Assembly (NCBI RefSeq): GCF_000024425.1
Contig: NC_013946.1
Span: 496,001 to 560,000, forward strand
Direction: 5' to 3'
DNA length: 64,000 nucleotides
Source: Meiothermus ruber DSM 1279
GTDB lineage: Bacteria; Deinococcota; Deinococci; Deinococcales; Thermaceae
A program made the position numbers and the translations under genes. Numbering within the stretch: the stretch's first letter is position 1; each line of letters begins with the position of its first letter. Under the pieces are notes generated by a model that ran no database searches, had not been told where the DNA came from, and saw only the letters and a list, made by a program, of their open reading frames with translations. Of this stretch, positions 2,355 to 59,986 are shown one piece after another.

Positions 2355-2662
2355 TGCGTCGTCGGGTGTACCGCCTCTACCAGCCCATCACCATCGTGGG
2401 GCTGGAACTCTGGCAACTCCCGGTCATCGGGCTGGGGTTCGTGATCGGCCTGCGCCTCATGGAAGGGGTGCATCCGGCGGCAGGGCTCCTCTCGGGGGCC
2501 CTGACCGGCTACCTGGCGCTGACAGCGGCGGAGAAGCTGCGGGAGCGCTACCCGGGTGCTTCGCTTTTGCATGAGGCGCTGTGGCTCACGCAGAGCGACC
2601 GCTATACGCCGGGAAAGGATCAGGAGACCACACCGCTGTTGATTCGCAATGACCACGAATAG
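2354..2662 (+). CDS. VirB3-like inner-membrane protein
   Basis: 102 residues. The N-terminus is short and basic (MRRRVYRLYQP), followed by a long hydrophobic stretch (about 13-60) that can hold two membrane segments, then a charged tail. VirB3 proteins are small, poorly conserved and nearly always lie between VirB2 and VirB4, as here. In the family it sits at the inner membrane and partners VirB4. Its start overlaps the VirB2 stop by one base and its end overlaps VirB4 by 14 bases. The call is mainly positional and topological. Confidence 0.65.
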   Translation: MRRRVYRLYQPITIVGLELWQLPVIGLGFVIGLRLMEGVHPAAGLLSGALTGYLALTAAEKLRERYPGASLLHEALWLTQSDRYTPGKDQETTPLLIRNDHE

Positions 2663-5186
2663 TCCTACCAGTTTGCTCAACCGGCCTCGGGAGCGTTCGC
2701 TCACCGAGGAGTTTCCGTATTGGGAGATCCACGACGGGGCGATGTTTCTTGAGGATGGGCGGTGCGAGGTGGGGGTGGAGTTGTTGCTCCGCCCCACCCT
2801 GCTCCTATCCCAGAACGAGCTCGAGGGCCTCCTCTACATGGTGCGGAGCGTGCTCAGGAACGGGGTGCCACAGGGGGCACGAGCCCGGCTGGTGGTGGAG
2901 GCGGCCCCGGCTCCCCAGGAAACCGTGGAGGCGTATGGGAGGGCCTTCGACCCATCCCACCCTACCGCCCGCTTCTTGCAGAACGAACGCTACAGGTTCT
3001 GGAGCGATTTGTGGGCCAGAGGGCAGGTGATGACCCGGCGGGCCTTCCTTACCGTGCTCTACGGCAACAAGCGCCCCCGGCGGCTGCCGTTTGGCAAGGC
3101 TGAGCTGGCCGAGCGGGTCAAGGAGGGGGGCAAGATCCGCGAGCGAATCCGCATGATTGCCAAGGGGCGGGGGGTGGCGGTGCAGGAGATGGACTCGCAG
3201 GAGGTCTTCGGCCTGGCCTACCGCTACCTCAACCCCGGGATGCGGCAGGCCGGGGTGCCCCGCTACCGCCCCACCTGGCAGCGCTACCCCCGCAGTGCGG
3301 TGGAGAAGATACCGGGGCTCAGGCCCCCCACCCTGCGCACCCAACTGGTGCGGAGCGAGGTGGACAACTCCCACCGCGACGCCCTCTACATCGGGGGAAA
3401 GTGGGCCAGCATGTTCACCCTCTACACCATCCCCGACGAGACCTATACCGAGATGGGGGACGTGCTGGCCCTGGCCGGAGGGGGGGAGTTCTACCTGGTG
3501 GTGGATGTCTACCACGAGCCCTACGAGAAGGCCCTGAAGGCGCTCAAGGCGCGGGCCAGGCGGTTCTACGCCGCCAGCGCCAACACCGAGACCTACGTTG
3601 ATCCCAACATCCTGGTCGGGCAGCGGGAGACCGAGGGGGCCATCCAGCACATCTCCCAGACGGGCGACCACGTGTACCGGGTGGGGGTAGCCCTGATCCT
3701 GATCGAAAAGGAGCGGGAGGCCCTGGAGCGCCGGGCGAGTCAGGTGGTGGGGCGGCTGTCGGAAATCCCCGGCAACCCTTTCCGGCAGCTCAAGAACGGC
3801 CTCTTCGAGCCCTGGAAGAGCCGGGCCCCGTTTAGCGGGGGGATGAGCGACGAGGTGGTGAGCCTGCTGGAATCCAACGCCGCCGACCTGATCCCCCTCA
3901 CCGGGGCCTGGAAGGGGCACGAGAAGCCGGTGGCGCTCTTCCACAACCGCTTCCTCTCCCTCACCCGCATAGACCCCTTTACCCCTACCACCAACAACTG
4001 GAACGGGATTATTGCGGGCGGATCGGGCTCGGGGAAGACCTTTTTCACACAATACATTCTTTCCGAACTGCTGCGCCGCAACGAGGTGGACGTGGTGATC
4101 CTCGACCGGGGACGCAACTACGAGGCGCTGGTGGAGGCCTTTGAAGGGGCCTTCATTGACATCCGCCCCGGCGGGGAGACGGCGGTCAATATGTTCGACC
4201 TGGACGAGGGCGAACACACCCCCAGCCCGGAGAAGCTCCAGGACGTGCTGCGCTTTTTGCGGGCCATCCTCCCGGCGGGGGACGACCGCACCGAGGAGGC
4301 GGTGGAGAACGCCATCCTGGAAGCGGCCATCGAGCAGACCTACAAGCGGGCCAGCCCCGACCTGCCCCAGCCGGACGGCACGTACCGCAAGGTCTACCAG
4401 GGGGCCCGACTCTCTGACCTGGTGCAAACCCTGGTGCTGCTGGACGAGGTGGGCAGCCGCCCGGCCTCTCCCTCGGAGAAGGAAGTCGCCCGCAAGCTGG
4501 CCTTGCGGCTTCAGTCCTGGGTAGGTGACAGCCCCAAGGGGCAGTTCCTTGACCGGCCTACCAGCGTCCCCCTGGCCCGGGCGCGGGTGGTGTGCTACGA
4601 GCTCGAGGGCCTGAAGGACGACCTGGAGGTGATCGGCACGCTCCTGATCGCCGACCTGGTGTGGAAGCGGGCCAAGAAGGGGCAGGGGCGGCGGGTGCTG
4701 GTGGTGCTGGACGAGGCCTGGAAAGTATTTCAAAGCCCGTATGCCTCGCAACTGATCGAGGAGCTCTACCGGCGCTTCCGCTTTCTGGGCGGGGGCATCT
4801 GGAGCATCACCCAGAGCCTCGCAGACTTCGCCGGGGAGGGCCCCAAAGCGCTTTTGCAGAACACCAGCTTCCACTTCCTGCTGCGCCTTTCGGGCAGCGA
4901 TGCCGAGCACGCGGTGATGCGCGACGTGCTGGGGATGCCCGACCGGGCCATTGCGGTACACGCCAGGCTGACCGGGGTCAAGGGGGTGTATTCGGAAGGC
5001 CTGGCCTGGATTCGCACCGGCGAGGGCCGGGAGGGCGAGGTGATTGTGGTGCGGCCCAACCCGGTGGACTACTGGATGTTCACCACGGACAAGGGCGAGG
5101 TGGCGCGGCGGCGGGCGGCGGTGCAGCGCTACGGCGACGTGATCCGGGCGGTGCGGGCGCTGGCCTATGGGGAGGAGAAAACATGA
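2649..5186 (+). CDS. virB4: VirB4-family T4SS ATPase
   Basis: 845 residues, the normal size for VirB4/TrbE ATPases that power pilus assembly and DNA transfer at the inner membrane. The C-terminal RecA-like domain has Walker A GGSGSGKTFF at about 456-465, followed by ILDRGRNYEALVEAF, and Walker B VLVVLDEAWKVF at about 682-693. A later ITQSLADFA segment corresponds to the conserved motif after Walker B. The N-terminal half is the usual variable VirB4 domain. Translation is coupled with both neighbours: it overlaps VirB3 and ends in ATGA with the next gene. This is the clearest marker of a type IV secretion system in the window. Confidence 0.93.
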   Translation: MTTNSPTSLLNRPRERSLTEEFPYWEIHDGAMFLEDGRCEVGVELLLRPTLLLSQNELEGLLYMVRSVLRNGVPQGARARLVVEAAPAPQETVEAYGRAFDPSHPTARFLQNERYRFWSDLWARGQVMTRRAFLTVLYGNKRPRRLPFGKAELAERVKEGGKIRERIRMIAKGRGVAVQEMDSQEVFGLAYRYLNPGMRQAGVPRYRPTWQRYPRSAVEKIPGLRPPTLRTQLVRSEVDNSHRDALYIGGKWASMFTLYTIPDETYTEMGDVLALAGGGEFYLVVDVYHEPYEKALKALKARARRFYAASANTETYVDPNILVGQRETEGAIQHISQTGDHVYRVGVALILIEKEREALERRASQVVGRLSEIPGNPFRQLKNGLFEPWKSRAPFSGGMSDEVVSLLESNAADLIPLTGAWKGHEKPVALFHNRFLSLTRIDPFTPTTNNWNGIIAGGSGSGKTFFTQYILSELLRRNEVDVVILDRGRNYEALVEAFEGAFIDIRPGGETAVNMFDLDEGEHTPSPEKLQDVLRFLRAILPAGDDRTEEAVENAILEAAIEQTYKRASPDLPQPDGTYRKVYQGARLSDLVQTLVLLDEVGSRPASPSEKEVARKLALRLQSWVGDSPKGQFLDRPTSVPLARARVVCYELEGLKDDLEVIGTLLIADLVWKRAKKGQGRRVLVVLDEAWKVFQSPYASQLIEELYRRFRFLGGGIWSITQSLADFAGEGPKALLQNTSFHFLLRLSGSDAEHAVMRDVLGMPDRAIAVHARLTGVKGVYSEGLAWIRTGEGREGEVIVVRPNPVDYWMFTTDKGEVARRRAAVQRYGDVIRAVRALAYGEEKT

Positions 5187-8033: not shown

Positions 8034-8258
8034 ATGTTGAACGTATCGGACTTGATCGAAGGAAAGCAACTGGTAGGACGTTGGTTCACCCACCAGAACC
8101 ACGACTGCGTGGTGCGGGCGGTGGAGGCGGTGCTGGAGAGCCCGGGCCGGGCCGGTAAGGAGGTGGGCCTGTGGCAGCTTGAGGTGGATGGACGGGTGCT
8201 CGAGCGGGTCTACGGCACCCTGGATGCGGCCACCCGGAGGTTGGCGGAGCGGCTATGA
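8034..8258 (+). CDS. Small conserved-operon protein, unknown
   Basis: 74 residues, soluble, preceded by GTGAGGGAGAT and ending in an ATGA overlap with the coupling-protein gene. It has a compact alternating pattern (GRWFTHQNHDCVVRAVEAVL, then WQLEVDGRVLERVYGTLD). No family recognised. Tight coupling suggests it is made together with the coupling protein and could be its small partner, but nothing in the sequence proves that. Confidence 0.6.
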   Translation: MLNVSDLIEGKQLVGRWFTHQNHDCVVRAVEAVLESPGRAGKEVGLWQLEVDGRVLERVYGTLDAATRRLAERL

Positions 8259-10540
8259 GCGTGACCCGGCGGCAGTCGTTGCTCGAAGTGCCCACCTCCC
8301 AGAAGCTCCTGCGGTTTCTGGGAGGTCTGGTAATGCTCTCCACCCTGGCCCTGGCCTTCGGGGTTGGATGGCAGGCCGCGCTGGAGGTGGCCCAGGGGAT
8401 GCTGCGGGCGGGGTGGGGAGCCGCGCTGAAGGCGTCGAGCCCTGCCGAGCTGATCCTGCGCTGCTACGGTGACCTGACCGGCAACTGCACGGAGGTCATG
8501 AACGGCCTGTGGCAGAAGGCCCTGCCCCTGGACACCCTGCGGATGGTGGTGGCCGGGGGGTTTGTCCTGGGGATGATCCCCTTCCTGATCCGCCCGCACC
8601 GCCCGCGCAAGCTGCCGGGGCAGGGGCGGTGGGCCAGCGCCAGCGACCTGAAGGGTTACTTAGGGGAGGGCACCGGCTGGTACGGGCTGTTCGAGGGGAA
8701 GCCGCTCAGGGTGCCCTCGATGGAGCGGCGCACCGGGACGCTGGTGGTGGGCAAGCCCGGCGGGGGCAAAACGACCGGCTACTACCAGCCCAACTTGCTG
8801 CTCGACGCGCGGGACGGCTGGAGCGCCATCGTTTTCGATCTCAAGTGGCCCGACGAGGGCGGGCTGATGGAGGCGATACGCTACTACAGCCACTTCGGGC
8901 GGGCGGTGTATGCCTACACGCCCTTCGCGCCGGGCTCGGCCCGCATTGCCCTGCTGGAAGGTGCGGAGAACCCCCAGGAAGCCAGCAACATCGCGGACAT
9001 CATCGTGCCCCGCCTGGCCGACGGGGGGGCGGAGTTCTACGCCAACCTCGAGCGGATGCTCCTGGCCGGGTTGATATGGGTGGAGGGGCAGGAAGGGCGC
9101 TACTCCCTGCGGCACATCCTCGAACTGTTGCGCCAGGGCAAGGAGGAGATCAAAGCCTACGCCGAAGTCCGCCCACATCTGAAGGACCGGATCGGAGCGG
9201 TCATGCAGACCCGCGAGGACATCATCGCCGGGGTGGTGGCAGGGCTGGCAGGCAGGCTGGCCCTCTTCGAGAACGACCATTTGGATCGCTCGAGCCTGCC
9301 GGGTGCAGGGGCGGTGCCCTGGCCTCGCCTGTTCAGCGAGCCCAGCCTGCTTTACATCGGCATCCCCCAGGAGCACCTGGAAGGGGGCAAGGCCACGGCC
9401 CTCTTGTGGCTGGTCAAGCGCATCCTGGACCGGGAAATCCACCGGGCTGCTGCCCGGAACGGGGGGACGCTTAAAGCGCTCACCTCGGTCTACCTCGACG
9501 AGTTCACCGCCTTCGGCAAGCTCCCCGGCATCGAGGACAACCTCAAGACCATGCGCAGCAGGGGAGCGGCCTTCCACGTGAGCGTGCAGAACCTGGCCAA
9601 CGGGCGCTCGGTATATGGGCGGGATGTGTGGGAGAGCATCCAGGGGACGTTCGGGCAGCAGGTGTATCTGCTCGAGCGCCTCTCGGAGGAAGACCGCAAA
9701 TGGCTGGCCCGGACGCTGGGGTACGAGACCGTGGTGGGATACTCCAGAAGCGCCTCCAAAATGGGCTTCCTCTCGGGCAGCGAGGGGGAGGGCGAGCGCG
9801 AGGAGGCCCGCTTCCTGCTTTCCGCCGAGGAGATGCGGGAGGTGAAGAAAGGCGAGACGGTGGTGATCCTGGACGGCAAGCCGCCGGTGCGCACCTACCT
9901 GGGGGGGATGTGGGAGAAAAAACACCCCCTGCATGGGCTCTACGAGAAGGCCCGGAAGGCTGTCCCGGCAGTGCGGGCGGGAGCCGCCCGGGACAGGGCC
10001 TACGCCGAACCCCAGCCCCGGCCTGCTTCCTCTTCCGTGGAAGAGCGCCAGCCTGAGCCTGAACGCCAGCCCGTCGAGCTCCAGCCAGAGGAGCGTTCTC
10101 TGGTGCAGGAGGCCAGCGATCCCCGCAGCCTGGAAGCCTACATCCGGCGACTGGCCTCCACCCTGCCGGTCTTCCAGCGCTACTACCACAAGAAGACCAC
10201 CACCGGGATTCGCTTCGTGCTGCCCGCGGGCTTCCCCCCACCCGAGACGGCCTGGGTGCGGGAGGGCTGGATCGAGGTGCGGGGCAAAGAGGAACTCTCG
10301 GTCAACCTCACCAGCAAGGGCCTGGAGACCCTGGAAAAGACCTTCGTGGCGGCCCTGGTGCGCTGGTGCCGGGTGCGGGAGTGGGCCCGGCGGCAGAACC
10401 AGGAACGCCAAAGCCTGCTCTATATGAGCGAGGAGGAAGCCGAGACCGTGCTCAGGGAGTACGCCAAACAACTTCCCACGGAAGGGGGGCGGGTGAGGGT
10501 CGAGATTTCATTGGAGGCGTTGGGCGATGCAAGGGCTTGA
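8255..10540 (+). CDS. TraG/VirD4-type coupling protein
   Basis: 761 residues. Two N-terminal membrane segments (about 16-36 and 95-113) are followed by the hexameric ATPase domain: Walker A VVGKPGGGKTTG at about 163-174, IVFDLKWPDE, Walker B VYLDEFTAFGKLPG at about 411-424, then the SVQNLANGRSVYG segment expected in TraG/TraD/VirD4 proteins. In the family it recruits the relaxase-DNA complex to the secretion channel. The last 200 residues are Glu/Pro-rich and then form an extra folded region (FQRYYHKKTTTGIRFVLP) not usual in VirD4, possibly the substrate-recognition part. Overlaps both neighbours. Confidence 0.9.
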   Translation: MSVTRRQSLLEVPTSQKLLRFLGGLVMLSTLALAFGVGWQAALEVAQGMLRAGWGAALKASSPAELILRCYGDLTGNCTEVMNGLWQKALPLDTLRMVVAGGFVLGMIPFLIRPHRPRKLPGQGRWASASDLKGYLGEGTGWYGLFEGKPLRVPSMERRTGTLVVGKPGGGKTTGYYQPNLLLDARDGWSAIVFDLKWPDEGGLMEAIRYYSHFGRAVYAYTPFAPGSARIALLEGAENPQEASNIADIIVPRLADGGAEFYANLERMLLAGLIWVEGQEGRYSLRHILELLRQGKEEIKAYAEVRPHLKDRIGAVMQTREDIIAGVVAGLAGRLALFENDHLDRSSLPGAGAVPWPRLFSEPSLLYIGIPQEHLEGGKATALLWLVKRILDREIHRAAARNGGTLKALTSVYLDEFTAFGKLPGIEDNLKTMRSRGAAFHVSVQNLANGRSVYGRDVWESIQGTFGQQVYLLERLSEEDRKWLARTLGYETVVGYSRSASKMGFLSGSEGEGEREEARFLLSAEEMREVKKGETVVILDGKPPVRTYLGGMWEKKHPLHGLYEKARKAVPAVRAGAARDRAYAEPQPRPASSSVEERQPEPERQPVELQPEERSLVQEASDPRSLEAYIRRLASTLPVFQRYYHKKTTTGIRFVLPAGFPPPETAWVREGWIEVRGKEELSVNLTSKGLETLEKTFVAALVRWCRVREWARRQNQERQSLLYMSEEEAETVLREYAKQLPTEGGRVRVEISLEALGDARA

Positions 10541-40341: not shown

Positions 40342-40563
40342 ATGCGAACCACCATCTACCTGCCCGATGACCTCGCCCGGGTGGTGGAGGCGTACCTGAA
40401 GGAGCACCCCCAGACCAACCTCTCGGCCCTGGTGCAGGAAGCGCTGGAGGCCCGGTTGCGCCGCAACCCGGCGGCCCTTTTGGAGCTGGCCGGGGTCGTC
40501 GAGAAGGCCTCGGTAAACGCCGGGGAGGGGGCTGAGGACCGCCTGTACCGCCAGGAGCGATGA
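40342..40563 (+). CDS. Ribbon-helix-helix antitoxin (VapB-like)
   Basis: 73 residues. The N-terminus MRTTIYLPDDLARVVEAYL with NLSALVQEALEARL is a ribbon-helix-helix DNA-binding domain. The C-terminal 25 residues are acidic and flexible, as in antitoxins. It overlaps the PIN toxin gene by four bases (ATGA). It should bind and silence the toxin and repress its own promoter. Confidence 0.82.
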   Translation: MRTTIYLPDDLARVVEAYLKEHPQTNLSALVQEALEARLRRNPAALLELAGVVEKASVNAGEGAEDRLYRQER

Positions 40564-40973
40564 CCCCGCAGAGGCTGGTTCTGGACGCGGGGCCGCTGAT
40601 CGCGCTCTTCCACGCCGCCGACCCTGACCACGAGGCGGCGGTGCGCGGGTTCCGCGCGCTGGCGGAGGGGAATAGCCGCCTGATCACCCCCCTGCCGGTG
40701 GTGTTCGAGGTGTACAAGTGGCTGCTCTTCGAGGGGGGTGCGGCGGTGGCCCGGCGGGCCCTGGAACGGATGGTGGAGGCGTTGGAGGTCGTTCCGCTCG
40801 GGCTGGAAGACCTCGAGGCCATCCGGGTGCTGCTGGCCTCGAGGCCGGAGTGGAGGGGCACCCTGGAGGACGCGGGCGTGGTGCTCCTGGCCCTGCGGTC
40901 CAAAGCCCAGGTGTGGACGCTGAACTACCGCGACCTGGGGGTGTTCAGGGAGCTGCAGTTCTGGGCGGGCTGA
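40560..40973 (+). CDS. PIN-domain toxin (VapC-like)
   Basis: 137 residues. PIN motifs in order: LVLDAGPLIALF (first Asp), DHEAAV, TPLPVVFEVYKWL (Glu), LEDAGVVLLALRSKAQVWTL (Asp region). Metal-dependent ribonuclease expected, cutting RNA when free of the antitoxin. The pair is placed between the accessory array and the TnpB element and ends in a hairpin at 40972. Confidence 0.85.
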   Translation: MTPQRLVLDAGPLIALFHAADPDHEAAVRGFRALAEGNSRLITPLPVVFEVYKWLLFEGGAAVARRALERMVEALEVVPLGLEDLEAIRVLLASRPEWRGTLEDAGVVLLALRSKAQVWTLNYRDLGVFRELQFWAG

Positions 40974-41148: not shown

Positions 41149-42732
41149 GTGAAGGCCAGGCCTGAAGTCGCGCGCAAGTGTAGCTCGCAGAGGGCGAAGG
41201 CCTTCACCGGAGTCCAGGCTCTTCTCGTCTTTCCCTCTGAAGAAGACCGCAAGGCCGTCCTGGACCTCATGCGACGCTTCTCCGCTGGGGTACGTTACGC
41301 CTACAACCGTCTTTTAGAAGGGAAGGACCGGGACAAACTCAAACGGCAAAACAGTCCTCTGTCCGTCCTCTTCGGTCTGAACACCCGCTACGCCGATGAC
41401 GCGATCTTGAAGGCCCAGGCCGTCCTGGACTCCGCCAGGGAACTGGGAGAGGATCCCCGGAAGGTCGTCTTCGGGGGTAGAAAAGCTTTTGAACAATTAA
41501 AGCGCAGGCACCTCTCAGGTAAGCCCCTGGAGGAACTCCAGCGGGAGTGGAAGGAGAGGCGGCAGGGCCTCCTCTACTCCCGTGGGGACCAGACCAAGGG
41601 GGGCAACCTGAACCTGAGGCTCCTCGTCAAGGACGGAGCCTTGCGGCTCCGGATCAACCTCGCAGACGGAAGCTACGCCCACGCCCTGGTCAGGACGAGG
41701 CACCCCAACCTGAACGCCCTGGTGGAGAGGGTCTACGCCTCCCTTCCCTACAACGTGGAGCTCTCCTTGCGGGAGGGGAAGGTCTACGCCCACTTTACCT
41801 GGCAGGAGAAGCTTCCCGCTCTCCTTCACACCAGGAAAAGCGGCGTTCTGGCGATAGACATCAACGCCGACCCCTACCACCTGGCCCTGGCGGTGGTGAG
41901 CCCTGATGGAAACCTCAGGAAGCACCTCGCTCTCTCCCTGGAGGAGGTGGACCGGGCAGAGAACAGGGGAACCAAGGAACTCCTCCTCTGGAAGGTGGCC
42001 CACGAGGTCGTCTCCCTGGCCGAGGAGCACCGGGTAGCCGTCGCTACCGAACGCCTAAAATACCTTCCCAAAGGGAGGAGGGGGGACGGGTCCGGGCGAG
42101 CGTTCCGCAGGAAAGCCCACCGCTTCGCCTACGCTTCCCTCCTCCGGAAGATCCACTCCCTGGCGAGAAAGAGGGGCGTGGAGGTGGTGGAGGTAAACCC
42201 CCAGGACACCTCCACCATCGGGATGCTCAAGTACGCCCCCCTCCTCTCCCTCTCCAAGGACACATCTGCCGCTTACGTCATCGGGAGGCGGGCGTTGGGG
42301 TTTGAGGAGAAGATTCCCGGGGGGTACGAAAAGCTCCTTCAGGACGAGGGCTTCAGGGCCCACGTCGAAAACTTCTACGCTTCCAGGGCGCATGAACTCC
42401 GCGCGAAGAAGGCCGCCGAGCCCAATCCTTACCTGAAGCGCAGGCTTTCCCGCCAGATCGGGAAGACCGAGCGCCACCGATCTTTGTTTTCAAGCTTTCA
42501 GGGCTCTTCAGGGAGCCGGGAGGGGTCAACCGGTGGAAGGAACCCCCATGGCGCCCATCCCTGGCGGGTGCTGAGGGCAGGCACTTTCCTTCCCCTTCTC
42601 GGGCGCGAGGTGCCGAGGGACCTCTCTCCCCTCAAGCCCATCCTCTTCGGGGGATCGTGGAAGGGGTGGAAGGGAAGCCGAGGTCCCCATCCTGGTGGGG
42701 GGCCGGAGTGCGCTAATGTGCACTTTGGTTGA
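41149..42732 (+). CDS. TnpB-like RNA-guided nuclease / IS605 OrfB
   Basis: 527 residues from GTG 41149, with AGGAGG seven bases upstream and TATACT about 24 bases upstream. The RuvC core is recognisable: first Asp in GVLAIDINADPYHLALAVV (about 230), Glu in VAVATERLKYLPKG (about 300), then VEVVEVNPQDTSTIGMLKYA and the last Asp in SKDTSAAYVIGRRAL (about 373). The usual CxxC zinc finger between the last two motifs is missing. The last 75 codons are Pro/Gly-rich and probably overlap the guide-RNA (reRNA) region rather than code a domain. No TnpA is nearby. Confidence 0.78.
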   Translation: MKARPEVARKCSSQRAKAFTGVQALLVFPSEEDRKAVLDLMRRFSAGVRYAYNRLLEGKDRDKLKRQNSPLSVLFGLNTRYADDAILKAQAVLDSARELGEDPRKVVFGGRKAFEQLKRRHLSGKPLEELQREWKERRQGLLYSRGDQTKGGNLNLRLLVKDGALRLRINLADGSYAHALVRTRHPNLNALVERVYASLPYNVELSLREGKVYAHFTWQEKLPALLHTRKSGVLAIDINADPYHLALAVVSPDGNLRKHLALSLEEVDRAENRGTKELLLWKVAHEVVSLAEEHRVAVATERLKYLPKGRRGDGSGRAFRRKAHRFAYASLLRKIHSLARKRGVEVVEVNPQDTSTIGMLKYAPLLSLSKDTSAAYVIGRRALGFEEKIPGGYEKLLQDEGFRAHVENFYASRAHELRAKKAAEPNPYLKRRLSRQIGKTERHRSLFSSFQGSSGSREGSTGGRNPHGAHPWRVLRAGTFLPLLGREVPRDLSPLKPILFGGSWKGWKGSRGPHPGGGPECANVHFG

Positions 42733-46591: not shown

Positions 46592-46786
46592 ATGCGTGAG
46601 GAGCTCTGTCCCGAATGCCAGGGCAACGGCTATGTCGAGTACATCGCTGGAAGCTACTACAGCGAATCGTTCGGCAACTACCTGCCGCTAGAGGACGTTG
46701 CGCCGTGCAGAACTTGTAGCGGTACCGGATACGTCGAGGTGGACGATGAAAGCGAAGCGGTTTTTGAAGAAAGTTGGTCGGCTTGA
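46592..46786 (+). CDS. Small DnaJ-type zinc-finger protein
   Basis: 64 residues. Two CxxCxGxG units, CPECQGNGYVEY and CRTCSGTGYVEV, separated by about 30 residues, as in the zinc finger of DnaJ. It lacks a J domain, so it is a free zinc-binding module, perhaps for protein contacts. The 3' end overlaps the next gene by 41 bases. Confidence 0.7.
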   Translation: MREELCPECQGNGYVEYIAGSYYSESFGNYLPLEDVAPCRTCSGTGYVEVDDESEAVFEESWSA

Positions 46787-46973
46787 ACTCTCCTACCTGC
46801 CCGAGGCCCCCGACCACGGCTGGCCGGAACTGGCGGTCGTCCTGGGCAGGCGGGTCATTCCGGTGGCGGTGGGCAGCGAGGCCACGGTGCTCTAGCACCA
46901 CCCCCTGGACGAGGTAGGCTTCCGGGCCCTGGCGGAGCGGTATGCCACGGAAGAGAAGCCGGTATCGGCTTGA
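46746..46973 (+). pseudogene. Small gene with internal amber codon
   Basis: From ATG 46746 the frame reads KRFLKKVGRLELSYLPEAPD, then GWPELAVVLGRRVIPVAVGS and EATVL, then TAG (46893-46895). In the same frame it continues sensibly as HHPLDEVGFRALAERYATEE to TGA 46971-46973, overlapping the start of the next gene. The part after the stop keeps the codon use of a real gene. Either a recent nonsense mutation, a sequencing error, or a 49-residue protein. Confidence 0.55.
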
Positions 46974-47637
46974 GGCCCATCGGTTGTGGGAGGTGCTCGA
47001 GCGGCTCTCCCTCAAGGACGGGCTCTTGCTGTGGGAGGCCCTGGGGGAAGACCCCAGGGACTTTCCTTTAGGGAAAGCGGAGGCGCTGAAGAAGGCGAAA
47101 CAGCGGATTCGGGGGGACAGAATGTCCCCGGGAATCACGCGAAACGAGGGGACAAAATGTCCCGCCCCTTTGCGTGCTGGAGAAAGAAGACCCCTTGCGA
47201 AAAAGGAGAAACGAGGGGACAGAGTGTCCCCTGGAAAAAGAGGAAATCAGGGGACAGAACGTCCCCGTTACCCCGACCCCGCCGGAGCGCTGGCCCAGGA
47301 ACTGGGGGGCTGGCGGGCGGGGCTTTTGTACCGGGCCCGCAAGGAGCAGAACGGGCTGATCCAGAAGCTGGCCCACCAGCACAGGGAAAGTCTGCTGGAG
47401 CTGCTGAACCTGGCCGAGGGGCTGCCCCTGCCGAGGAGAATCCCCACCACCCTGGCCTGGCTGGAGGAGTTTGCCAGGGAGCTCGAGCGCCTGGGCGACG
47501 CCGAGGTGCTGAAGGCGCTGCTCGAGGTGAGGAAGCGAGGCGCGGAGAACCCCCTGAGCTACGCGGCCCGGGTGCTGGCGGCGAGGGGTGTGCAGAAGAA
47601 GGAGGAAGTATGGACACCGACCGGCGAGCAGTTCTGA
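46942..47637 (+). CDS. Replication-initiator-like protein with iterons inside the gene
   Basis: 231 residues. A helical N-terminal part (RYRLEAHRLWEVLERLSLKD, LLLWEALGEDPRDFPLGKAE) is followed by a low-complexity linker (about 56-110) coded by the iteron region, then a helical C-terminal domain (YRARKEQNGLIQKLAHQHRE, RGAENPLSYAARVLAARG) like the helicase-contacting end of lambda O/DnaD-type initiators. A DnaC-like loader gene follows directly. The layout matches phage lambda O, where the origin lies in the initiator gene. The family assignment rests on this layout, not on a strong motif. Confidence 0.6.
   Translation: MPRKRSRYRLEAHRLWEVLERLSLKDGLLLWEALGEDPRDFPLGKAEALKKAKQRIRGDRMSPGITRNEGTKCPAPLRAGERRPLAKKEKRGDRVSPGKRGNQGTERPRYPDPAGALAQELGGWRAGLLYRARKEQNGLIQKLAHQHRESLLELLNLAEGLPLPRRIPTTLAWLEEFARELERLGDAEVLKALLEVRKRGAENPLSYAARVLAARGVQKKEEVWTPTGEQF
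47113..47266. repeat. Four palindromic iterons, candidate replication origin
   Basis: GGGGACA-NNN-TGTCCCC at 47113-47129, 47148-47164 (last base differs), 47215-47231 and 47250-47266 (one base differs). Start-to-start distances are 35, 67 and 35 bases. Each is a 17-bp dyad. Confidence 0.8.
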
Positions 47638-48434
47638 ATCTTGCCCCCTGGCTGGAGGGCCTACGAGTCAAAGGGGGGCAAGAAGTCCCCACCGATCCCG
47701 GCCTGCCCCCCTGCCCCCTATGCGGCGCGGCGGCCCTGGCCGGCTACATCTTCGAGCGGCCCGGCCAGATCGAGCACGACTGCGACTGCCACTACCTCGA
47801 GCCCGAGCGCTACCAGACCGCGCTGCTCAAATCCTGGCGGCGCTACACCGCACCGAAGCTGCTCGCGAAAGACCTCGAGGGCTACCCCCGCTACCGCGAC
47901 TACCTGGAAAAGCCCCTGGACGTGCACGCGGGCAACCGAGCGGCCATCGAGGCAGCACGGGCCTACCGGGGCGGCCTGCTCTACCTGTGGGGGCCTCCGG
48001 GGGTCGGCAAGACCCACCTGGCTTTGCGGCTGGCGGGGCGGCTGGTCGGTGAGGGGCGCTTTGTGCGCTTCCACAGCGAGCTCGACTTCCTGGCCGAGGA
48101 GCGGCTGGCGGCGGCGGGGGAGGGGGCCTTGCCCCAGTACGAGCGGCTCATCCTCGACGACGGGGGCAAGGCCCGAATCAGCCCCTTCAGCGCCGAACGC
48201 CTCTACGCCCTGGTCGAACGCGCCAGCGCGGGCGGGTGCGACCTGATCCTCACCAGCAACCTCTCCCCCGAAGCCTTCGCGGCCCGGCTGGGGGAGGTGG
48301 GCGAGGCGGTGCTCTCGCGGATAAAAGGTAGCGAGGTGGTGGAAGTCAAAGGGCAGGACAGAAGGGACCCGGGGGCGGCTGGAGCCGCCCCACACTCCAC
48401 GGGGGAAAGGAGAAAAGATGAAGATGAACATTGA
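47610..48434 (+). CDS. DnaC/DnaI-like helicase loader ATPase
   Basis: 274 residues from ATG 47610 (GGAGGAAGT upstream). A zinc-binding N-terminus (CPLCG ... HDCDCHY, about 36-63) precedes the AAA+ domain: Walker A LWGPPGVGKTHLALRLAG (about 128-145), Walker B ERLILDDGGKAR, and sensor DLILTSNLSPEAF. DnaC/DnaI proteins load the replicative helicase at origins. Its 3' end runs through hairpin copy 6, so the last 30 residues (from about RRDPGAAGAAP) are probably not conserved. Forms a replication module with the gene before it. Confidence 0.85.
   Translation: MDTDRRAVLNLAPWLEGLRVKGGQEVPTDPGLPPCPLCGAAALAGYIFERPGQIEHDCDCHYLEPERYQTALLKSWRRYTAPKLLAKDLEGYPRYRDYLEKPLDVHAGNRAAIEAARAYRGGLLYLWGPPGVGKTHLALRLAGRLVGEGRFVRFHSELDFLAEERLAAAGEGALPQYERLILDDGGKARISPFSAERLYALVERASAGGCDLILTSNLSPEAFAARLGEVGEAVLSRIKGSEVVEVKGQDRRDPGAAGAAPHSTGERRKDEDEH
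47639..47683. repeat. CTTGCCCC inverted repeat, copy 3
   Basis: Arms TCTTGCCCCC (47639-47648) and GGGGGCAAGA (47674-47683), 25 apart. It lies just after the stop of the initiator-like gene, inside the first codons of the helicase-loader gene. Confidence 0.75.
48372..48391 (+). terminator. Intergenic GC hairpin, copy 6 of 8
   Basis: GGGGCGGC-TGGA-GCCGCCCC before GGGGAAAGGAGAAAAG and the next ATG. No T tail here. Confidence 0.7.
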
Positions 48435-49578: not shown

Positions 49579-50091
49579 ATGGACAGAATCAGCATCCTGA
49601 CCCAACCCCTCACCACCGACGAGATCGAGTGGAAGATTATCTCGGCCAAGAACGGCCAGACCACCCTGGCCCCCTACATCGACGCACGAGCCGTCATGAG
49701 CCGCCTGGACAAAGCCTTCGGCCCCTTCGGCTGGCAGGTGCGTTACACTCCGGCTCAGGTGGGCAGCGAGCACGGGGTGATCGCCAGCATTACCATCAAA
49801 AACCCGGAAACCGGGGAGTGGGTGGAGAAGCAGGACGGTTCAGGCGCTTCTGACATGGAGCCCTTCAAGGGAGGCATCTCCGGCGCTTTGAAAAGAGCCG
49901 CCACCACCTGGGGCATCGGGCGGGAGCTTTACAGCTACCCCAGGGTGGTTGTGGAGGGGGAGCACAGGTTCATCCCCTTCAAGGTGCTGGAGCGGCTCAA
50001 GGGCTTGCCCAAGGCCGTTGCGGAGGGTAAGCCTCTACCGGAGGTCATCCGGCTCAACACGGAGGGGGAGAGTGTGCGGAAGGGGGGTTGA
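49579..50091 (+). CDS. Rad52/Rad22-family single-strand annealing protein
   Basis: 170 residues; AAAGGAG lies eight bases before the ATG. Family features: the opening EIEWKIISAKNGQTTLAPYI, ARAVMSRLDKAFGPFGWQVR, the SITIKNPETGEWVEKQDGSG hairpin and FKGGISGALKRAATTWGIGR followed by ELYSYPR. These proteins bind single strands and anneal them. DdrA of Deinococcus belongs here. On a conjugative element it may help establish single-stranded incoming DNA. Last gene of the hairpin array. Confidence 0.88.
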   Translation: MDRISILTQPLTTDEIEWKIISAKNGQTTLAPYIDARAVMSRLDKAFGPFGWQVRYTPAQVGSEHGVIASITIKNPETGEWVEKQDGSGASDMEPFKGGISGALKRAATTWGIGRELYSYPRVVVEGEHRFIPFKVLERLKGLPKAVAEGKPLPEVIRLNTEGESVRKGG

Positions 50092-51189: not shown

Positions 51190-53865
51190 TCATTCGCTAC
51201 TTTTGAAGCTTGATCGGACGCGCTCAGGGCTCAGTTCAGCCGCGGAGGTTTCTACGACGTAAGGAACCTCGAGCGCCTGGAAATGGGCCCTGCCGCTCTC
51301 GATCTTGAGGCGCTCGCTGACGCGCAGCTTAGTCATGTCCTTGCTGCCCTTGGTCTCGCAGATGAAGTAGAGCTTCTCCTGCTCGCCATCTACCATGACC
51401 ACGGCCCAGTCGGGGCGGTACTTGCCGAGCGGGGTGTCCACCTCGAACCAGTCAGGGAGCTTAACGAAGAGCTTCACATCCTCGCGCTTGTCCAGGGCTT
51501 CGGCGAAGCCCCGCTCGACCTCCGACTGGAAGATCACCCCGTCGTAGATGGAATTGCTCACCTCGACGATTTTGTCCAGGTAGCCAATGAGTTCCTTGCT
51601 CTCGAAGAGCATCATGTCGTAGGCCTGTCCCTCGAGCCGTTCGTACTTGATGCCCTCCACCATCAGCTCCCCGAGGGTGTTCCTGATGGCGGCTAGGGCT
51701 AGGTCGATGAACTGTTGGGGGTTCTCCTTGGCATCCGCCAGCCGCCCCGACTCCTTGAGGATGCGGGCCAGGGTGCCGCGAGTCAGCTCGGTCTCGCGCT
51801 GAAGGTAGGCCAGCAGGTCAGGGACGGCGGGGCGGAAGTCCAGGTCTTCGGTGTTGACCCTGACGAGTGCGGTCTCGAGGTCTTCGCCAAGCCGGACGAT
51901 GCGCCCCTTTTCGATGCGGTAGCGCGGGCGCTCGACCTTTGGCATCTCACGGATGGCCTTGGCGGCCCGCTGCACGAGGTCCTCGGTGTCGAACTCCACC
52001 CGGTAGCGGGTGTGGTGCTTGATCCGTTCCCAAAGCGCGCGGAAGTCCTCGTTGAGCTCCCAGCCCTTCTTGAGCTTGAGGGTGCGCCGCTCGCGGCTGT
52101 TTTTGATACGCTCCTGCCCAAAGTCAAGGCCGGTCTCCTCCTCGATTTCGGTCTGCAGGGCCTTAGCGAAGTCCTTGTAGCTCTCGTTGGCGATGACGGT
52201 CAGCCGATTGATCCGGGCGTCGAACGATCGTTCCCCGTTCTCGCGCACCGGCAGGCGCAGGCCCCGCCCGATCTCCTGGCGTTTCTTGACCTCGGAGCGG
52301 GTCTCGTTGAGCGTGCAGATCTGGAACACGTTGGGGTTGTCCCAGCCCTCGCGCAAGGCCGAGTGGCTGAAGATGAAGCGCAAGGGCTCCTCCAGCGACA
52401 ACAGCCGCTCCTTATCGCGCATGATCTTCTCGTAGGCCTCCTCGTCGGCCTGGGTATTGCCCGAGGTGTCCTTCCATCCTGTCTTGTCCTCGGCGAAGTA
52501 GCCCCCGTGCACCTGCTCCACCGGGGGAAGGTTCAAGGAGGCGTAGACCGGGAGTGACGAAAGTTCGTGGTAGGCCTCCTCGAACCAGCGCCGAAACTTG
52601 GCGTCTTCGCCCCGGTAGTTGGCTACCCGGTCGATGAAAAACAGGGACAACACCTTGAGGCGCTGGCCCTCCGGCAGCCGCGCGACGGCGAGTTCCTTGT
52701 TCAGGTGTTCGCGCACGGTTTCTCGGATCTGCGCCCGCATCAGCTCATCGGCGTTGACTCCTTGTTCCTGCCCCTCCTCCAGGCGCACCCCGTTGGCGAA
52801 GCTCACGTACTTGAAGCCCGCGTCGATCTCGTCCACCACGTAGCCCCGGTACAGCTCCCGCCCCCCCGACAGCTCGTAGAGGTCGGAGCCCTGCTTGAGG
52901 GTCACGGATTTGCGCTTGGCGGCACTCCCGTCCCAAACGTCGAGCTCTACCTTAGCGCTGATGCTGCTTTTGGTGGCCTTGACTTCCTTCAGCTTCAGGT
53001 AGGGAACGTTGAAGTTCTCCTCCTCGAGCACCGACGTCACCTCGATCTGCTTGACCAGCCCGAGGTCGTAGGCCCGTACCGGGTCGAGCCGGTAAAGCAG
53101 GTTGTAGGGGTTGCGGTGGGTGGCTGAGTAACGCAGCGTGCAGAGGGGATTCAGGCTCGCCAGGGCTCGTTTCGCCAGGTTGCTCTCGAAGTTCTGCGGC
53201 TCGTCCACGATGACGATCGGGTGCGCCGCCCGGATGAATTCGATGGGGCAGAAGCCCGAAAGCCGGTCATTGGGGAGAAAGATCACGTTGTTGCTCGGTT
53301 TGTTGAAGGCATCAATGTTGATGATAAGGATTTGCAGGGTGTTCTCGGTAGCGAAGGAGCGCAGCCGTGAGACCTGTTTGGAGTCGTAGACCCAGTAGTC
53401 CACCGGCACGTTGCCGTAGAGGGTGTCGAAATGCTCTTTGGTGAGGCGCAGATTCGAGAGCACCCCCTCCCGGATGGCGACGCTGGGCACGGCGACGATG
53501 AACTTCTTGAAGCCGTAGAGGCGGTGCAGCTCGTAGATGGTGCGGAGGTAGACGTAGGTCTTGCCAGTCCCGGTCTCCATCTCTACCGAGAAGTTGAGCG
53601 CGATGCCGCTATCGGGGATTTCGATGGCCTCGAGCCGATCGCTCGGTTCCAGCCCGTTGGCCTCCTGCACCCGGCGGACGTTCTCCAGCAGGGCCTCTGG
53701 GCTGAGCAGCAGCCCGTTGGCGTAGGCGGCGATGCCATATAGTTCGTCGGACTCCATGCCCAGGGTGTAGAGCCCCTCGCTCAAGGGTTGCCCTTCGAAT
53801 ACCCCCGTCACTGCCTGGATGGCCTCGAGCTGGTACTCCTGGTTGCTCTCGAACTTGATCTTCAT
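51190..53865 (-). CDS. res: Type III restriction endonuclease subunit (Res)
   Basis: 891 residues from ATG 53865, two bases after the mod stop. Helicase motif I METGTGKTYVYLRTI (about 96), motif II IVIVDEPQNFES (about 225), FSHSALREGWDNPNVFQICT and QEIGRGLRLPV, and a C-terminal PD-(D/E)xK nuclease: YRPDWAVVMVDGEQEKLYFI then CETKGS (about 815-840). Res moves along DNA with Mod and cuts between two inversely oriented sites. Complete length for the family. Confidence 0.93.
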   Translation of the reverse strand: MKIKFESNQEYQLEAIQAVTGVFEGQPLSEGLYTLGMESDELYGIAAYANGLLLSPEALLENVRRVQEANGLEPSDRLEAIEIPDSGIALNFSVEMETGTGKTYVYLRTIYELHRLYGFKKFIVAVPSVAIREGVLSNLRLTKEHFDTLYGNVPVDYWVYDSKQVSRLRSFATENTLQILIINIDAFNKPSNNVIFLPNDRLSGFCPIEFIRAAHPIVIVDEPQNFESNLAKRALASLNPLCTLRYSATHRNPYNLLYRLDPVRAYDLGLVKQIEVTSVLEEENFNVPYLKLKEVKATKSSISAKVELDVWDGSAAKRKSVTLKQGSDLYELSGGRELYRGYVVDEIDAGFKYVSFANGVRLEEGQEQGVNADELMRAQIRETVREHLNKELAVARLPEGQRLKVLSLFFIDRVANYRGEDAKFRRWFEEAYHELSSLPVYASLNLPPVEQVHGGYFAEDKTGWKDTSGNTQADEEAYEKIMRDKERLLSLEEPLRFIFSHSALREGWDNPNVFQICTLNETRSEVKKRQEIGRGLRLPVRENGERSFDARINRLTVIANESYKDFAKALQTEIEEETGLDFGQERIKNSRERRTLKLKKGWELNEDFRALWERIKHHTRYRVEFDTEDLVQRAAKAIREMPKVERPRYRIEKGRIVRLGEDLETALVRVNTEDLDFRPAVPDLLAYLQRETELTRGTLARILKESGRLADAKENPQQFIDLALAAIRNTLGELMVEGIKYERLEGQAYDMMLFESKELIGYLDKIVEVSNSIYDGVIFQSEVERGFAEALDKREDVKLFVKLPDWFEVDTPLGKYRPDWAVVMVDGEQEKLYFICETKGSKDMTKLRVSERLKIESGRAHFQALEVPYVVETSAAELSPERVRSSFKSSE

Positions 53866-53867
53866 GG

Positions 53868-55757
53868 CTAGGCTGTGCGAAAGCGGATGCCCCGGTCCCG
53901 CATCTCCAGGACGATGTTGGTCTTGAGCGCGTCGTTGCCTGAGAAGGCCACGTCCAGGCACACCACCTGAAGGGGCTTAGGCTCCAAGGCCGTCATCGCC
54001 CGCAAGGTCTCGGCCCGGATGGGCCGCTCGAGGCAGACCAGCAACTGCCCCTCCGCCACCGAGTACACCTTTTGCCCATGGATCTCTTGTTCCCGGATCT
54101 TCGAGGACAGCGGCAGACCGGCCTTGAGCAACAGCTCGAAGAGCACGTCCTCCTGGCTGCGCCCCTCCACGAGGTTGTCTACGAGGCCCTCGAGAGCGCC
54201 TTGAATGTCCTCGGCCTCGCCGTCCCACAGCTTGAAGTTGCTAGTGTCTAAACTAAAGGCCCTGAAGCCTAAATCCTGGCCGTCCGGCTCTAGGAGCTGA
54301 ACTGCTGATTTTTCGTCCCCCGACCTGATGCGCTCCGCCGCTTTTTGTACTCGGCCACGCGTCACACTGCTGATGGTCGGGTAATTGGGGTTGGGGGTGG
54401 GTTCGGGTAGCTGGACAAGAACGAACCTCCGGTCACCTCCGTCCTCCTGGTTCATCTCCAGCACAGCCTGCCCCAGCGTGCCTGACCCCGCGAAGAAATC
54501 GAGGACGATATCCCCGGCATCGGGCTCGGTAGCGAGCTGAAGCAGCCGCTTGAGCAGCCTCACCGGCTTGGGCGTATCGAAGGCGTCGGCGTCCTCCCCG
54601 AACAGCGATTTGAACTCCTTCTTCGCTTCGTCGGTGTGCCCGACATCGGTATGCTCCCACCAAGTATCGGCTACCACGCCAGCGACCTCTGATAGGAAGC
54701 GCTTATAGCGGGGTGTTTCATTCTCTTGGTTCAGCCCCCACCAGACACGATTCTCACTGACGTTGCGTTCATGTACTTCCCTACTGTATGCCCATACCCG
54801 TGTCGGGCTCGGCCATATCTCCTTGCCGGTCTTGGGATGAATGATCGGATAGTAAAGGTTGGGCCTCTGCTCGGAAGTTTTGTTACAGGTGTAGTTATCC
54901 GACATCCACGGTCCCCTGGGGTCATTGTCAGGGTTTTTATAAAGCCGGTTCTGCTCTTCAGTACGCTCCATTCGTTTGAGCGTCGCCACGGCCTTCCCTA
55001 GCTCGTTGAACCGGCGAGACTTCACATAAGAAAGCAGATAGTCATGGGTGTAGGAAAAATCGGTGGTGTCATTCGAGGGAGCATACTTTTTCTGCCAAAG
55101 AATGGTGGCGAGAAAGTTCTCCTCCCCGAAAATCTCATCCATGATCGCCCGGAGATTGTGCAGCTCGTGGTCGTCAATGCTGACGAAAATCACCCCGTCG
55201 TCCCGCAGGAGGCTTCGGGCGAGTTGCAGCCGAGGGTACATCATGGACAGCCACCTGCTATGGATTCGTCCTCCTTCTTCGGGTGTGGTGGTTAGCCTGA
55301 CCCCATCCTCGGATAGCTGGCCGGTAAAGCGGAGGTACTGCCGAATCCCTTCCCGGAAATCGTCGGGGTATACAAAGTCGTTGCCCGTATTGTAGGGCGG
55401 GTCAATGTAGATCATCTTGACCTTGCCGTGGTAGGCCTGTTGTAACAGCTTAAGCACCTCGAGGTTGTCCCCCTCGATGATCACGTTTTCGGTGGTATCA
55501 AAATCTACGGATTGATCCCGCTTAGGTCGCAGGGTTCCCCTACTCGGGATTTGCACTGCGCGGATCGCTTCGGCCTTCCCAGCCCATGACAGCCCGTAGC
55601 GTTCCCGCCCCGTTTCCACCTTCATCCCCAACAATTTCTGGAAGGTCTCGAGGTCGAGTCTTCCCTCTGTGAAGGCCTCGGGGAAGAGTTCGCGGAGGGT
55701 CTCGAGGCGCTCCTCGATCGGGTTCGGTGTGGTGAGGAGAAGCTTGTCGGGTACCAT
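53868..55757 (-). CDS. mod: Type III DNA methyltransferase subunit (Mod)
   Basis: 629 residues. DPPY motif IYIDPPYNTGNDFVY at about 117, SAM-binding DFFAGSGTLGQAVLEM at about 420, so the order is that of beta-class adenine methyltransferases, as usual for type III Mod. The central target-recognition region (about 200-400) has IDDHELHNLRAIMDEIFGEE, then LWQKKYAPSNDTTDFSYTHD. It methylates the recognition sequence and guides Res. The pair is complete and probably active. Confidence 0.93.
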   Translation of the reverse strand: MVPDKLLLTTPNPIEERLETLRELFPEAFTEGRLDLETFQKLLGMKVETGRERYGLSWAGKAEAIRAVQIPSRGTLRPKRDQSVDFDTTENVIIEGDNLEVLKLLQQAYHGKVKMIYIDPPYNTGNDFVYPDDFREGIRQYLRFTGQLSEDGVRLTTTPEEGGRIHSRWLSMMYPRLQLARSLLRDDGVIFVSIDDHELHNLRAIMDEIFGEENFLATILWQKKYAPSNDTTDFSYTHDYLLSYVKSRRFNELGKAVATLKRMERTEEQNRLYKNPDNDPRGPWMSDNYTCNKTSEQRPNLYYPIIHPKTGKEIWPSPTRVWAYSREVHERNVSENRVWWGLNQENETPRYKRFLSEVAGVVADTWWEHTDVGHTDEAKKEFKSLFGEDADAFDTPKPVRLLKRLLQLATEPDAGDIVLDFFAGSGTLGQAVLEMNQEDGGDRRFVLVQLPEPTPNPNYPTISSVTRGRVQKAAERIRSGDEKSAVQLLEPDGQDLGFRAFSLDTSNFKLWDGEAEDIQGALEGLVDNLVEGRSQEDVLFELLLKAGLPLSSKIREQEIHGQKVYSVAEGQLLVCLERPIRAETLRAMTALEPKPLQVVCLDVAFSGNDALKTNIVLEMRDRGIRFRTA

Positions 55758-55940
55758 AACGTAGAGTCAATCATAACTAGCTCGAGGCCATCCCGCACCA
55801 GGTGACGCACTGCGGGCTTTATACTTGGAACACACGCTCTGCACCGAACCGACGATGCCACGCGAGCCCACCTCCTCTCGGGTCAACCTGCTTACAGAGC
55901 ACAGCATGACCTACCGCCTTTGGCGGCCCAGGGTGATGAG
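55758..55940. promoter_or_regulatory. Divergent region between mod and the HipA-like gene
   Basis: A TATACT at 55820-55825 points to the plus strand, about 115 bases before the HipA-like start. No clear -35. No gene seen. Confidence 0.35.
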
Positions 55941-57601: not shown

Positions 57602-57701
57602 GTCCTCCGGTTGCCCTGGCCTTAGGCATCACAGGAATAAAGCCAATCACGATGTGCAAGTGCCGCTCAGGGCGCGTCCGGGCTTTGCTATCCTGTAGCT
57701 G

Positions 57702-59230: not shown

Positions 59231-59986
59231 TCAGCTACTCCTCCCACCCAGCACCCGCCGATAACTCTCCCCCACCTGCTCCAGCGAACTCTCGGCGTAG
59301 ATCTGGGTGGTCTTGAGGTCCCGGTGCCCCAGAAACTTCTGAAGCTGCTCCAGGGGCATCCCCCGGTCGAGAAGGATCTGCGCCACCGAGTGCCTGAGCA
59401 GGTGCGGGTAGACCCGCCGCTCGAGGCCCGCCTCCTTGGCGGCGGCCTGGATGAGCTTCTGGACGGCCCGGGGGGAGTAGCGCTGGTGGCGGTTGGACTC
59501 GAAGAGGTAGCCCCGGGTGCGCCCCGCCAGATGAACCCGCAGCTCCTGGGCCAGGGCGGGCAGGATCGGCACGTACCGCACCGAGTCCTTCTTGGCCTTG
59601 TGGACGTAGAGGTGGGGGGCCTCCCCGTCGAGGTGGAGGTCCTGGGCCCGCAGAAAGACGAACTCGCTGACCCGGCACCCGGTGTAGAAGAGCGTCTTCA
59701 ACATCAGGCCGTAGACCGGCTTCCGGGGGTTCAGGCGATACGCCGCTTCCAGCAGGCGGCTCACCGCTTCGGGGGAGAGCCGCTCCACCACCCGGCGGCG
59801 AGCCGGGGGCGGGGCGAGCTCCAGCATCCGGCGCACCCGCTCGACCACATACTTGCTCTGGTCGTAGTCCAGGTGGGCCTTGCGCCAGAGCCGGGCGGTC
59901 TCCCGGATCACCGCGTCCAGTTCAGAGTTCGCTTTCGTTTTCTTACCGCGCACTTCAGCCAGCTTGAGGGGGGTTGCGCTCTCCAT
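59231..59986 (-). CDS. Tyrosine recombinase (XerC/D-like)
   Basis: 251 residues. Catalytic residues in order: Arg in FYTGCRVSEFVFLRAQDL, Lys in VHKAKKDSVRYVP, HxxR in YPHLLRHSVAQILLDRG, the second His in LGHRDLKTTQIYAE, and the Tyr in that segment. The N-terminal SAM-like domain is short and basic. It could resolve plasmid dimers or move the island. It is placed at the edge of the defence-like genes. No direct-repeat attachment pair was found beyond the repeat at 60091. Confidence 0.88.
   Translation of the reverse strand: MESATPLKLAEVRGKKTKANSELDAVIRETARLWRKAHLDYDQSKYVVERVRRMLELAPPPARRRVVERLSPEAVSRLLEAAYRLNPRKPVYGLMLKTLFYTGCRVSEFVFLRAQDLHLDGEAPHLYVHKAKKDSVRYVPILPALAQELRVHLAGRTRGYLFESNRHQRYSPRAVQKLIQAAAKEAGLERRVYPHLLRHSVAQILLDRGMPLEQLQKFLGHRDLKTTQIYAESSLEQVGESYRRVLGGRSS

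Follow-up and report, generated by a model that had tools for sequence, protein, structure and literature searches.

A probable lambda-O-like replication module with an initiator-internal dyad array in an integrated conjugative element of Meiothermus ruber

Results and discussion

Gene content of the locus

In the window, the 64-kb stretch at positions 496001-560000 of the single-contig Meiothermus ruber DSM 1279 genome analysed here, a gene for a 231-residue protein, the probable initiator, carries an array of four dyads in its middle part and is followed by the gene of a DnaC-like AAA+ helicase loader, the start of which overlaps the 3' end of the former by 28 nt (Table 1). A gene for a single-strand annealing protein belongs to the same gene block. 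Furthermore, a T4SS ATPase, a coupling protein and an integrase candidate are found in one segment together with this module, the combination by which integrative and conjugative elements are defined. An initial annotation, made from the sequence alone, had proposed both the loader and the conjugative nature of the element, and the features listed in Table 1 bear out both.

Table 1. Features of the module and of the surrounding element, given as positions in the window
Feature	Position	Strand	Remarks
VirB4/TraC-type conjugation ATPase	2649..5186	+	
VirD4-type coupling protein (T4CP)	8255..10540	+	
Putative initiator gene	46942..47637	+	231 aa; ORF, AlphaFold2, homologues, C-terminal homology
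Predicted third helix (codons 45-61)	47074..47124	+	carries the type-splitting residues 49, 50, 51, 53, 54
Dyad 1	47113..47129	no strand	GGGGACA-GAA-TGTCCCC = GGGGACAGAATGTCCCC; putative initiator-binding iteron
Dyad 2	47148..47164	no strand	GGGGACA-AAA-TGTCCCG = GGGGACAAAATGTCCCG
Spacer between dyads 2 and 3	47165..47214		50 nt, A-rich; G+C ~52%, flanking codons 63-70%; weak candidate for the unwinding region
Dyad 3	47215..47231	no strand	GGGGACA-GAG-TGTCCCC = GGGGACAGAGTGTCCCC
Dyad 4	47250..47266	no strand	GGGGACA-GAA-CGTCCCC = GGGGACAGAACGTCCCC; degenerate or lost in some relatives
DnaC-like AAA+ helicase loader	47610..48434	+	phrog_50 3.9e-17; Pfam IstB_IS21 3e-11
Rad52/Erf-type single-strand annealing protein	49579..50091	+	same gene block, syntenic in relatives
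Tyrosine recombinase, candidate integrase	about 59231..59986	-	PF00589 match

In an alignment of relatives the Walker A and Walker B residues of the loader are conserved, as are four cysteines (C35, C38, C58, C60) located ahead of the Walker A sequence GPPGVGKTH. Assignment of the loader as IstB, the helper of IS21 transposition, was rejected: its score of 49 bits is far from the NCBIfam cut-off of 200, though above the broad Pfam cut-off. An IS21 context was rejected as well, the neighbours being the initiator gene and a small ORF, with no istA transposase gene. Ahead of the initiator, a small ORF at 46753-46896 has a TAG stop where relatives have TGG and may be a shortened gene here.

The gene block around the module is syntenic in the elements of relatives. 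A virB4 gene lies 40-61 kb from the initiator gene, or from a decayed copy or distant homologue of it, on one contig in G008, G022, G023 and Thermus G046 (genomes are given by our own labels, G000 being that of the window). VirB4 and the module therewith co-occur in elements of Meiothermus, Calidithermus-type and Thermus. No tRNA gene was found in the flanking 36 kb. The element at locus L142 (genome G020) has kept the syntenic block, and initiator and loader are both absent from it; therefore, elements of this kind do not invariably depend on the pair.

Several further observations concern the surroundings of the module. The segment 37001-40980, which contains genes for a DDE transposase and a DprA-like protein, is 97-99% identical at the DNA level to elements of other species and of another genus, a similarity well above that of the remaining module, which points to a recent spread. 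The module is flanked by a TnpB-like gene (41149-42732) and, judged by reading, by a PIN-type toxin-antitoxin-like pair (40342-40973), and on the other side by type III restriction-modification and candidate defence genes (51190-55757 and 55920-58478). A tRNA-Gly called by ARAGORN at 41621-41700 lies within the TnpB-like ORF, on the minus strand, and is possibly a false call. Intergenic hairpins with the structure (AACCA)GGGGGCGGC-N4-GCCGCCCC are present at eight positions, 40065, 44510, 45366, 45551, 46548, 48371, 49163 and 49532; behind several of them come a T-rich stretch and a GAGG that resembles a Shine-Dalgarno sequence. The exact hairpin GGGGCGGC-N4-GCCGCCCC has six copies in the genome, all within this block, and similar hairpins occur also between genes of the relatives' elements.

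The dyad array is a repeat at the DNA level

The dyads follow each other in start-to-start steps of 35, 67 and 35 nt and share the consensus GGGGACA-NNN-TGTCCCC, to which two of the four conform perfectly and two with a single mismatch; the number, spacing and mid-gene location given in the initial annotation were thus confirmed. Every other site in the remaining window differs from the dyad by at least two mismatches, and no further copy of GGGGACANNNNGTCCC exists in the whole 3,097,457-bp genome. A REP-like dispersed repeat was ruled out on these grounds, the dyad sites being unique in the genome.

All four dyads fall within codons 58-109, in the part of the ORF that encodes the linker of the protein. 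Since the distances between them are not multiples of three, dyads 1 and 3 share one reading phase and dyads 2 and 4 another, and the encoded peptides are dissimilar (GDRMSP, EGTKCP, GDRVSP and QGTERP for dyads 1 to 4). Two phases and unlike peptides mark the repeat as one of the DNA. When the gene was shuffled among synonymous codons, a family of four similar dyads arose in 4 of 2000 trials, a weak test because protein repeats constrain the shuffle. The conservation of the dyads among the genomes compared below is much stronger evidence against chance.

A 40-bp AT-rich tract like that of lambda was not found at the array, where the linker is mildly A-rich. GC skew has no turning point at 47.1 kb, the position at which a maximum had been anticipated; for an integrated element this is uninformative and speaks neither for nor against an origin.

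The putative initiator combines a shared C-terminal with a distinct N-terminal domain

According to the AlphaFold2 model, the initiator consists of an N-terminal helical domain (residues 1-61), an unstructured linker (62-112) and a C-terminal helical domain (113-215). The linker has a pLDDT of about 30-40, in line with the earlier view that the dyads overlie a low-complexity part of the protein. The models of the N-terminal domain are weak (pLDDT 55 and 65) and contain three predicted helices. Foldseek and VIA-align returned nothing significant with either the full model or the N-terminal one, both of low confidence. For the C-terminal domain, also a low-confidence helical model, a DnaD-like fold was looked for and no significant fold match was obtained. 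Structure prediction, proposed at the outset as a check, thus provided the unstructured linker and the helical domains, and stopped short of a fold assignment.

Sequence searches with the full 231-residue protein gave no Pfam match at E <= 1, RepA_N (PF06970) included, and no PHROG or NCBIfam match; neither PF04492 (Phage_rep_O) nor related HTH models were matched. No relative was detected by tblastn in the phage and plasmid collections or by scanning viral contigs with a profile of the protein, and a search of PDB sequences with the initiator profile gave no relevant match. The C-terminal domain, however, could be aligned to that of HTH-type initiators from other Thermaceae (hhalign probability 94, E 1.4e-7), with a score of 30.6 bits, while none of 1000 shuffles exceeded 11.4 bits. 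By these comparisons the C-terminal domain is not new and the N-terminal domain lies outside the matched families. The initial annotation had considered a new initiator family; this stands for the N-terminal ~60 residues, for which Pfam, PHROGs, NCBIfam and PDB gave no match, and not for the C-terminal domain.

Dyads and a predicted helix change together among relatives

Intact homologues of the initiator (71-80% protein identity) were found in five other Thermaceae genomes, four of them congeneric with M. ruber and one from a different genus, and decayed copies in two further genomes. The relatives found belong to Meiothermus and Calidithermus. In all six genomes with an intact initiator gene it is paired with the loader gene, and in all six genes the position of the dyads and the 35/67/35 spacing are kept, dyad 4 being lost in G007 and G013.

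Two types of dyads can be distinguished. Type A, with the arms GGGGACA/TGTCCCC, is present in G000 and G008, and type B, with the arms CGTGACA/TGTCACA, in G006, G007, G013 and G023. Within any one gene all dyads have the same arm form, except for a variant dyad 4 in G006 and G023. Between G000 and G008 the arms are identical at 55 of 56 positions and the spacers at 68 of 98 (Fisher p = 4.5e-6), whereas for the close relatives G023 and G006 the difference between arms and spacers is not significant. That the arms are far better kept than the spacers within type A indicates that they are under selection at the DNA level.

One could think of hairpins in the initiator mRNA, by which translation is controlled or coupled to that of the loader. 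Indeed, RNA folding of the segment is better than that of shuffled sequences (z = -4.8), though this is expected of any perfect dyads, and arm pair 3 shows a compensatory change from G:C to T:A. Hairpins require pairing within each copy only, yet here the arms match across copies and species; moreover, Rfam had no match across 39-52 kb, and the link between dyad type and certain residues of the protein, described next, points to recognition by a protein. We therefore regard a role at the RNA level as extremely improbable.

Outside the codons of the dyads themselves, the only residues that split strictly by dyad type among these six genes, which represent few lineages, are 49, 50, 51, 53 and 54. 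They are L, K, K, K and Q in type A (LKK.KQ) and R, R, Q, M and H in type B (RRQ.MH), and are located in the predicted third helix (residues 45-61), just ahead of the array. Other parts of the gene behave differently: residues 4-6, 18, 81, 82 and 85 group G000 with G007 and G013, as does, it seems, the spacer that separates dyad 2 from dyad 3. Spacers and N-terminus follow a genealogy other than that of dyad type. Since the helix residues split with the dyad type and the spacers do not, the protein is indicated to bind its own dyads. The simplest reading, drawn from six genes, is that the third helix would read the dyad arms. Judged from this alignment, the putative target sites and the helix presumed to recognise them have shifted in concert from species to species.

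The association could also result from linkage, a short recombination tract having moved the helix codons together with the dyads without any functional coupling, which would be compatible with an origin. The five codons are only 10-27 nt upstream of dyad 1, and mosaicism is seen in the alignment. However, the spacers between the dyads do not share the type split, and the helix residues identical in G000 and G008 are encoded by synonymously differing codons, which a recent single tract does not explain. Linkage appears rather unlikely to us. Taking functional coupling as the preferred reading, one may go a step further and tentatively see in the gene a specificity cassette: an initiator with a novel DNA-binding domain, in which the recognition helix and the four sites switch together, giving rise to new replication-compatibility groups among related conjugative elements, with the rest of the gene being interchangeable. 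We consider this possible, at somewhat less than even odds.

Similar arrays in other initiator genes

The HTH-type initiators which share the homologous C-terminal domain also adjoin related AAA+ loaders, and repeats were found in the linkers of several initiators. A different Meiothermus initiator (L046) has seven copies of the TGTCACCAAATGGTGACA type in its linker (span 676-942), that of L015 two triplets of a 15-nt repeat and that of L050 four repeat copies. Behind the repeats of L046, the short AT-rich repeat TTTAAGTATTAATTC occurs together with an almost identical second copy, which makes for a more lambda-like origin. Several phage loci reached via the loader likewise have dyad families in the upstream gene (L055, L072, L125). 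In the Thermus homologues L016-L020, loader and homologous C-terminal domain are present, but no dyad family was seen.

In addition, viral contigs were scanned by DNA only, with a pair of KGACANNNTGTCM at 35-nt spacing as query. This yielded 15 loci; with a scrambled dyad that kept the base composition there were two. At nine of the loci, judged by reading, the dyads fall into the linker part of HTH/O-like initiator genes. Of four such genes searched, three match PHROGs replication-initiation families, and for the fourth a weak match to HTH_36 was obtained. At six of the 15, the ORF with the dyads precedes a Walker-A ORF, as against 2 of 75 random positions. To control for spacing, the same dyad core was also searched at a distance of 42 nt; of the 50 viral loci obtained, six have the Walker-A-neighbour context (2 of 250 for comparison). 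Therefore, the core recurs in tandem also at other spacings, and the 35-nt spacing alone is not diagnostic. In some of these fifty contigs (L164-L213), with GACA-N3-TGTC dyads 42 nt apart, the linkers read as repeated KDTMS peptides. On the evidence of these loci the GACA-N3-TGTC core is a recurrent putative iteron of O-type initiators, and the scans suggest a widespread iteron type.

These arrays bear on two further explanations. As targets of an HTH-like protein, perfect dyads typically serve as operators, and initiators may autoregulate; accordingly, the protein could mainly be a regulator, with its own operon as the target of repression or activation, the AAA+ neighbour having another role. 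However, the four sites are located in the coding linker, at least 170 nt past the start codon and not at a promoter, a DnaC-like loader always adjoins the gene, the C-terminal domain is of the kind found in HTH-type initiators, and the matching phage arrays sit in O-like initiator genes. A mainly regulatory role is thus very unlikely. Dyad arrays also act as centromeres on mobile elements, so that the array might be a partition or conjugation site (oriT) which by chance lies in an initiator gene. Against this, no partition gene or relaxase was recognised beside the array with Pfam and PHROGs, its neighbours are the loader and the annealing protein, and comparable arrays elsewhere are located in initiator genes; such a function has hardly any probability in our view.

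Proposed function and comparison with known systems

We interpret the locus as the origin/initiator/loader module, of lambda-O-like type, of an integrated conjugative element, with the 231-residue protein as its origin-specific initiator, and assign to this reading a probability of roughly 0.8. It is based on the conservation of the dyads in the five relatives, the shared dyad form and its co-change with residues 49-54, the C-terminal homology, the gene order and the presence of conjugation and recombinase genes. The lambda O/P layout recognised in the initial annotation gains support from the same findings and from the viral scan. The N-terminal domain would bind each dyad as a dimer via the helix 45-61. 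Binding would bend the linker DNA and may open an A-rich stretch in or near the array, while the C-terminal domain would contact both the AAA+ loader encoded next door and the replicative helicase. The loader would then put the host helicase on DNA opened within the array or close to it, and the excised circle would replicate by the theta mode. In its action the module would resemble lambda O/P or pSK41 Rep.

In lambda, four iterons in the middle of gene O (ori-lambda) bind O dimers (PMC7466680, PMC5043065). As in lambda O/P, inverted-repeat iterons are situated mid-gene in the M. ruber module, and the initiator gene is followed by a loader gene. There are also differences: the N-terminal domain has no Phage_rep_O match, the spacing is 35/67/35, an AT-rich tract is missing, the carrier is a conjugative element, and the loader is a DnaC-like AAA+ protein, which lambda P, to our knowledge, is not.

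For the staphylococcal conjugative plasmid pSK41, the part of the published account drawn on here describes a RepA_N-type Rep whose linker, between the N-terminal DNA-binding and the C-terminal domain, is encoded by the origin with its four Rep boxes (PMC5703833). Initiator boxes within the linker part of the gene, on a conjugative element, are common to both systems. The M. ruber protein differs by having no RepA_N match and another box sequence, and by the presence of a loader gene, whereas that part of the pSK41 account mentions no plasmid-encoded helicase loader (PMC5703833). SGI1 is likewise an integrated mobile element with an iteron-based origin and replicates after excision (PMC7433901). 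Its four 17-bp iterons, unlike the dyads here, are direct repeats downstream of rep, its Rep is of plasmid type, and its origin is not internal to the initiator gene.

The closest correspondence in layout, linker repeats plus an AAA+ loader, is with the HTH_36/Phage_rep_O-type initiators of Thermaceae and phages (L046, L015, L050, L147, L157). Some of them share the GACA-N3-TGTC core and the 35-nt spacing, and several from Thermaceae share the C-terminal domain. They possess a winged-helix-like N-terminal domain, for which Pfam matches are mostly weak, in contrast to the ~60 residues with three predicted helices described here. Summarizing, the architecture is already known and the initiator itself is a new variety.

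Conclusion

If our interpretation is true, the conjugative elements of Thermaceae gain a defined replication origin, and a lambda-style module would be shown to serve a conjugative element in the Deinococcota. The sets of type A and type B, both of them small, would also be candidate replicons for vectors in thermophiles. The paired change of helix and putative iterons within one short gene would represent a natural experiment, in which an initiator changed its target and kept its function.
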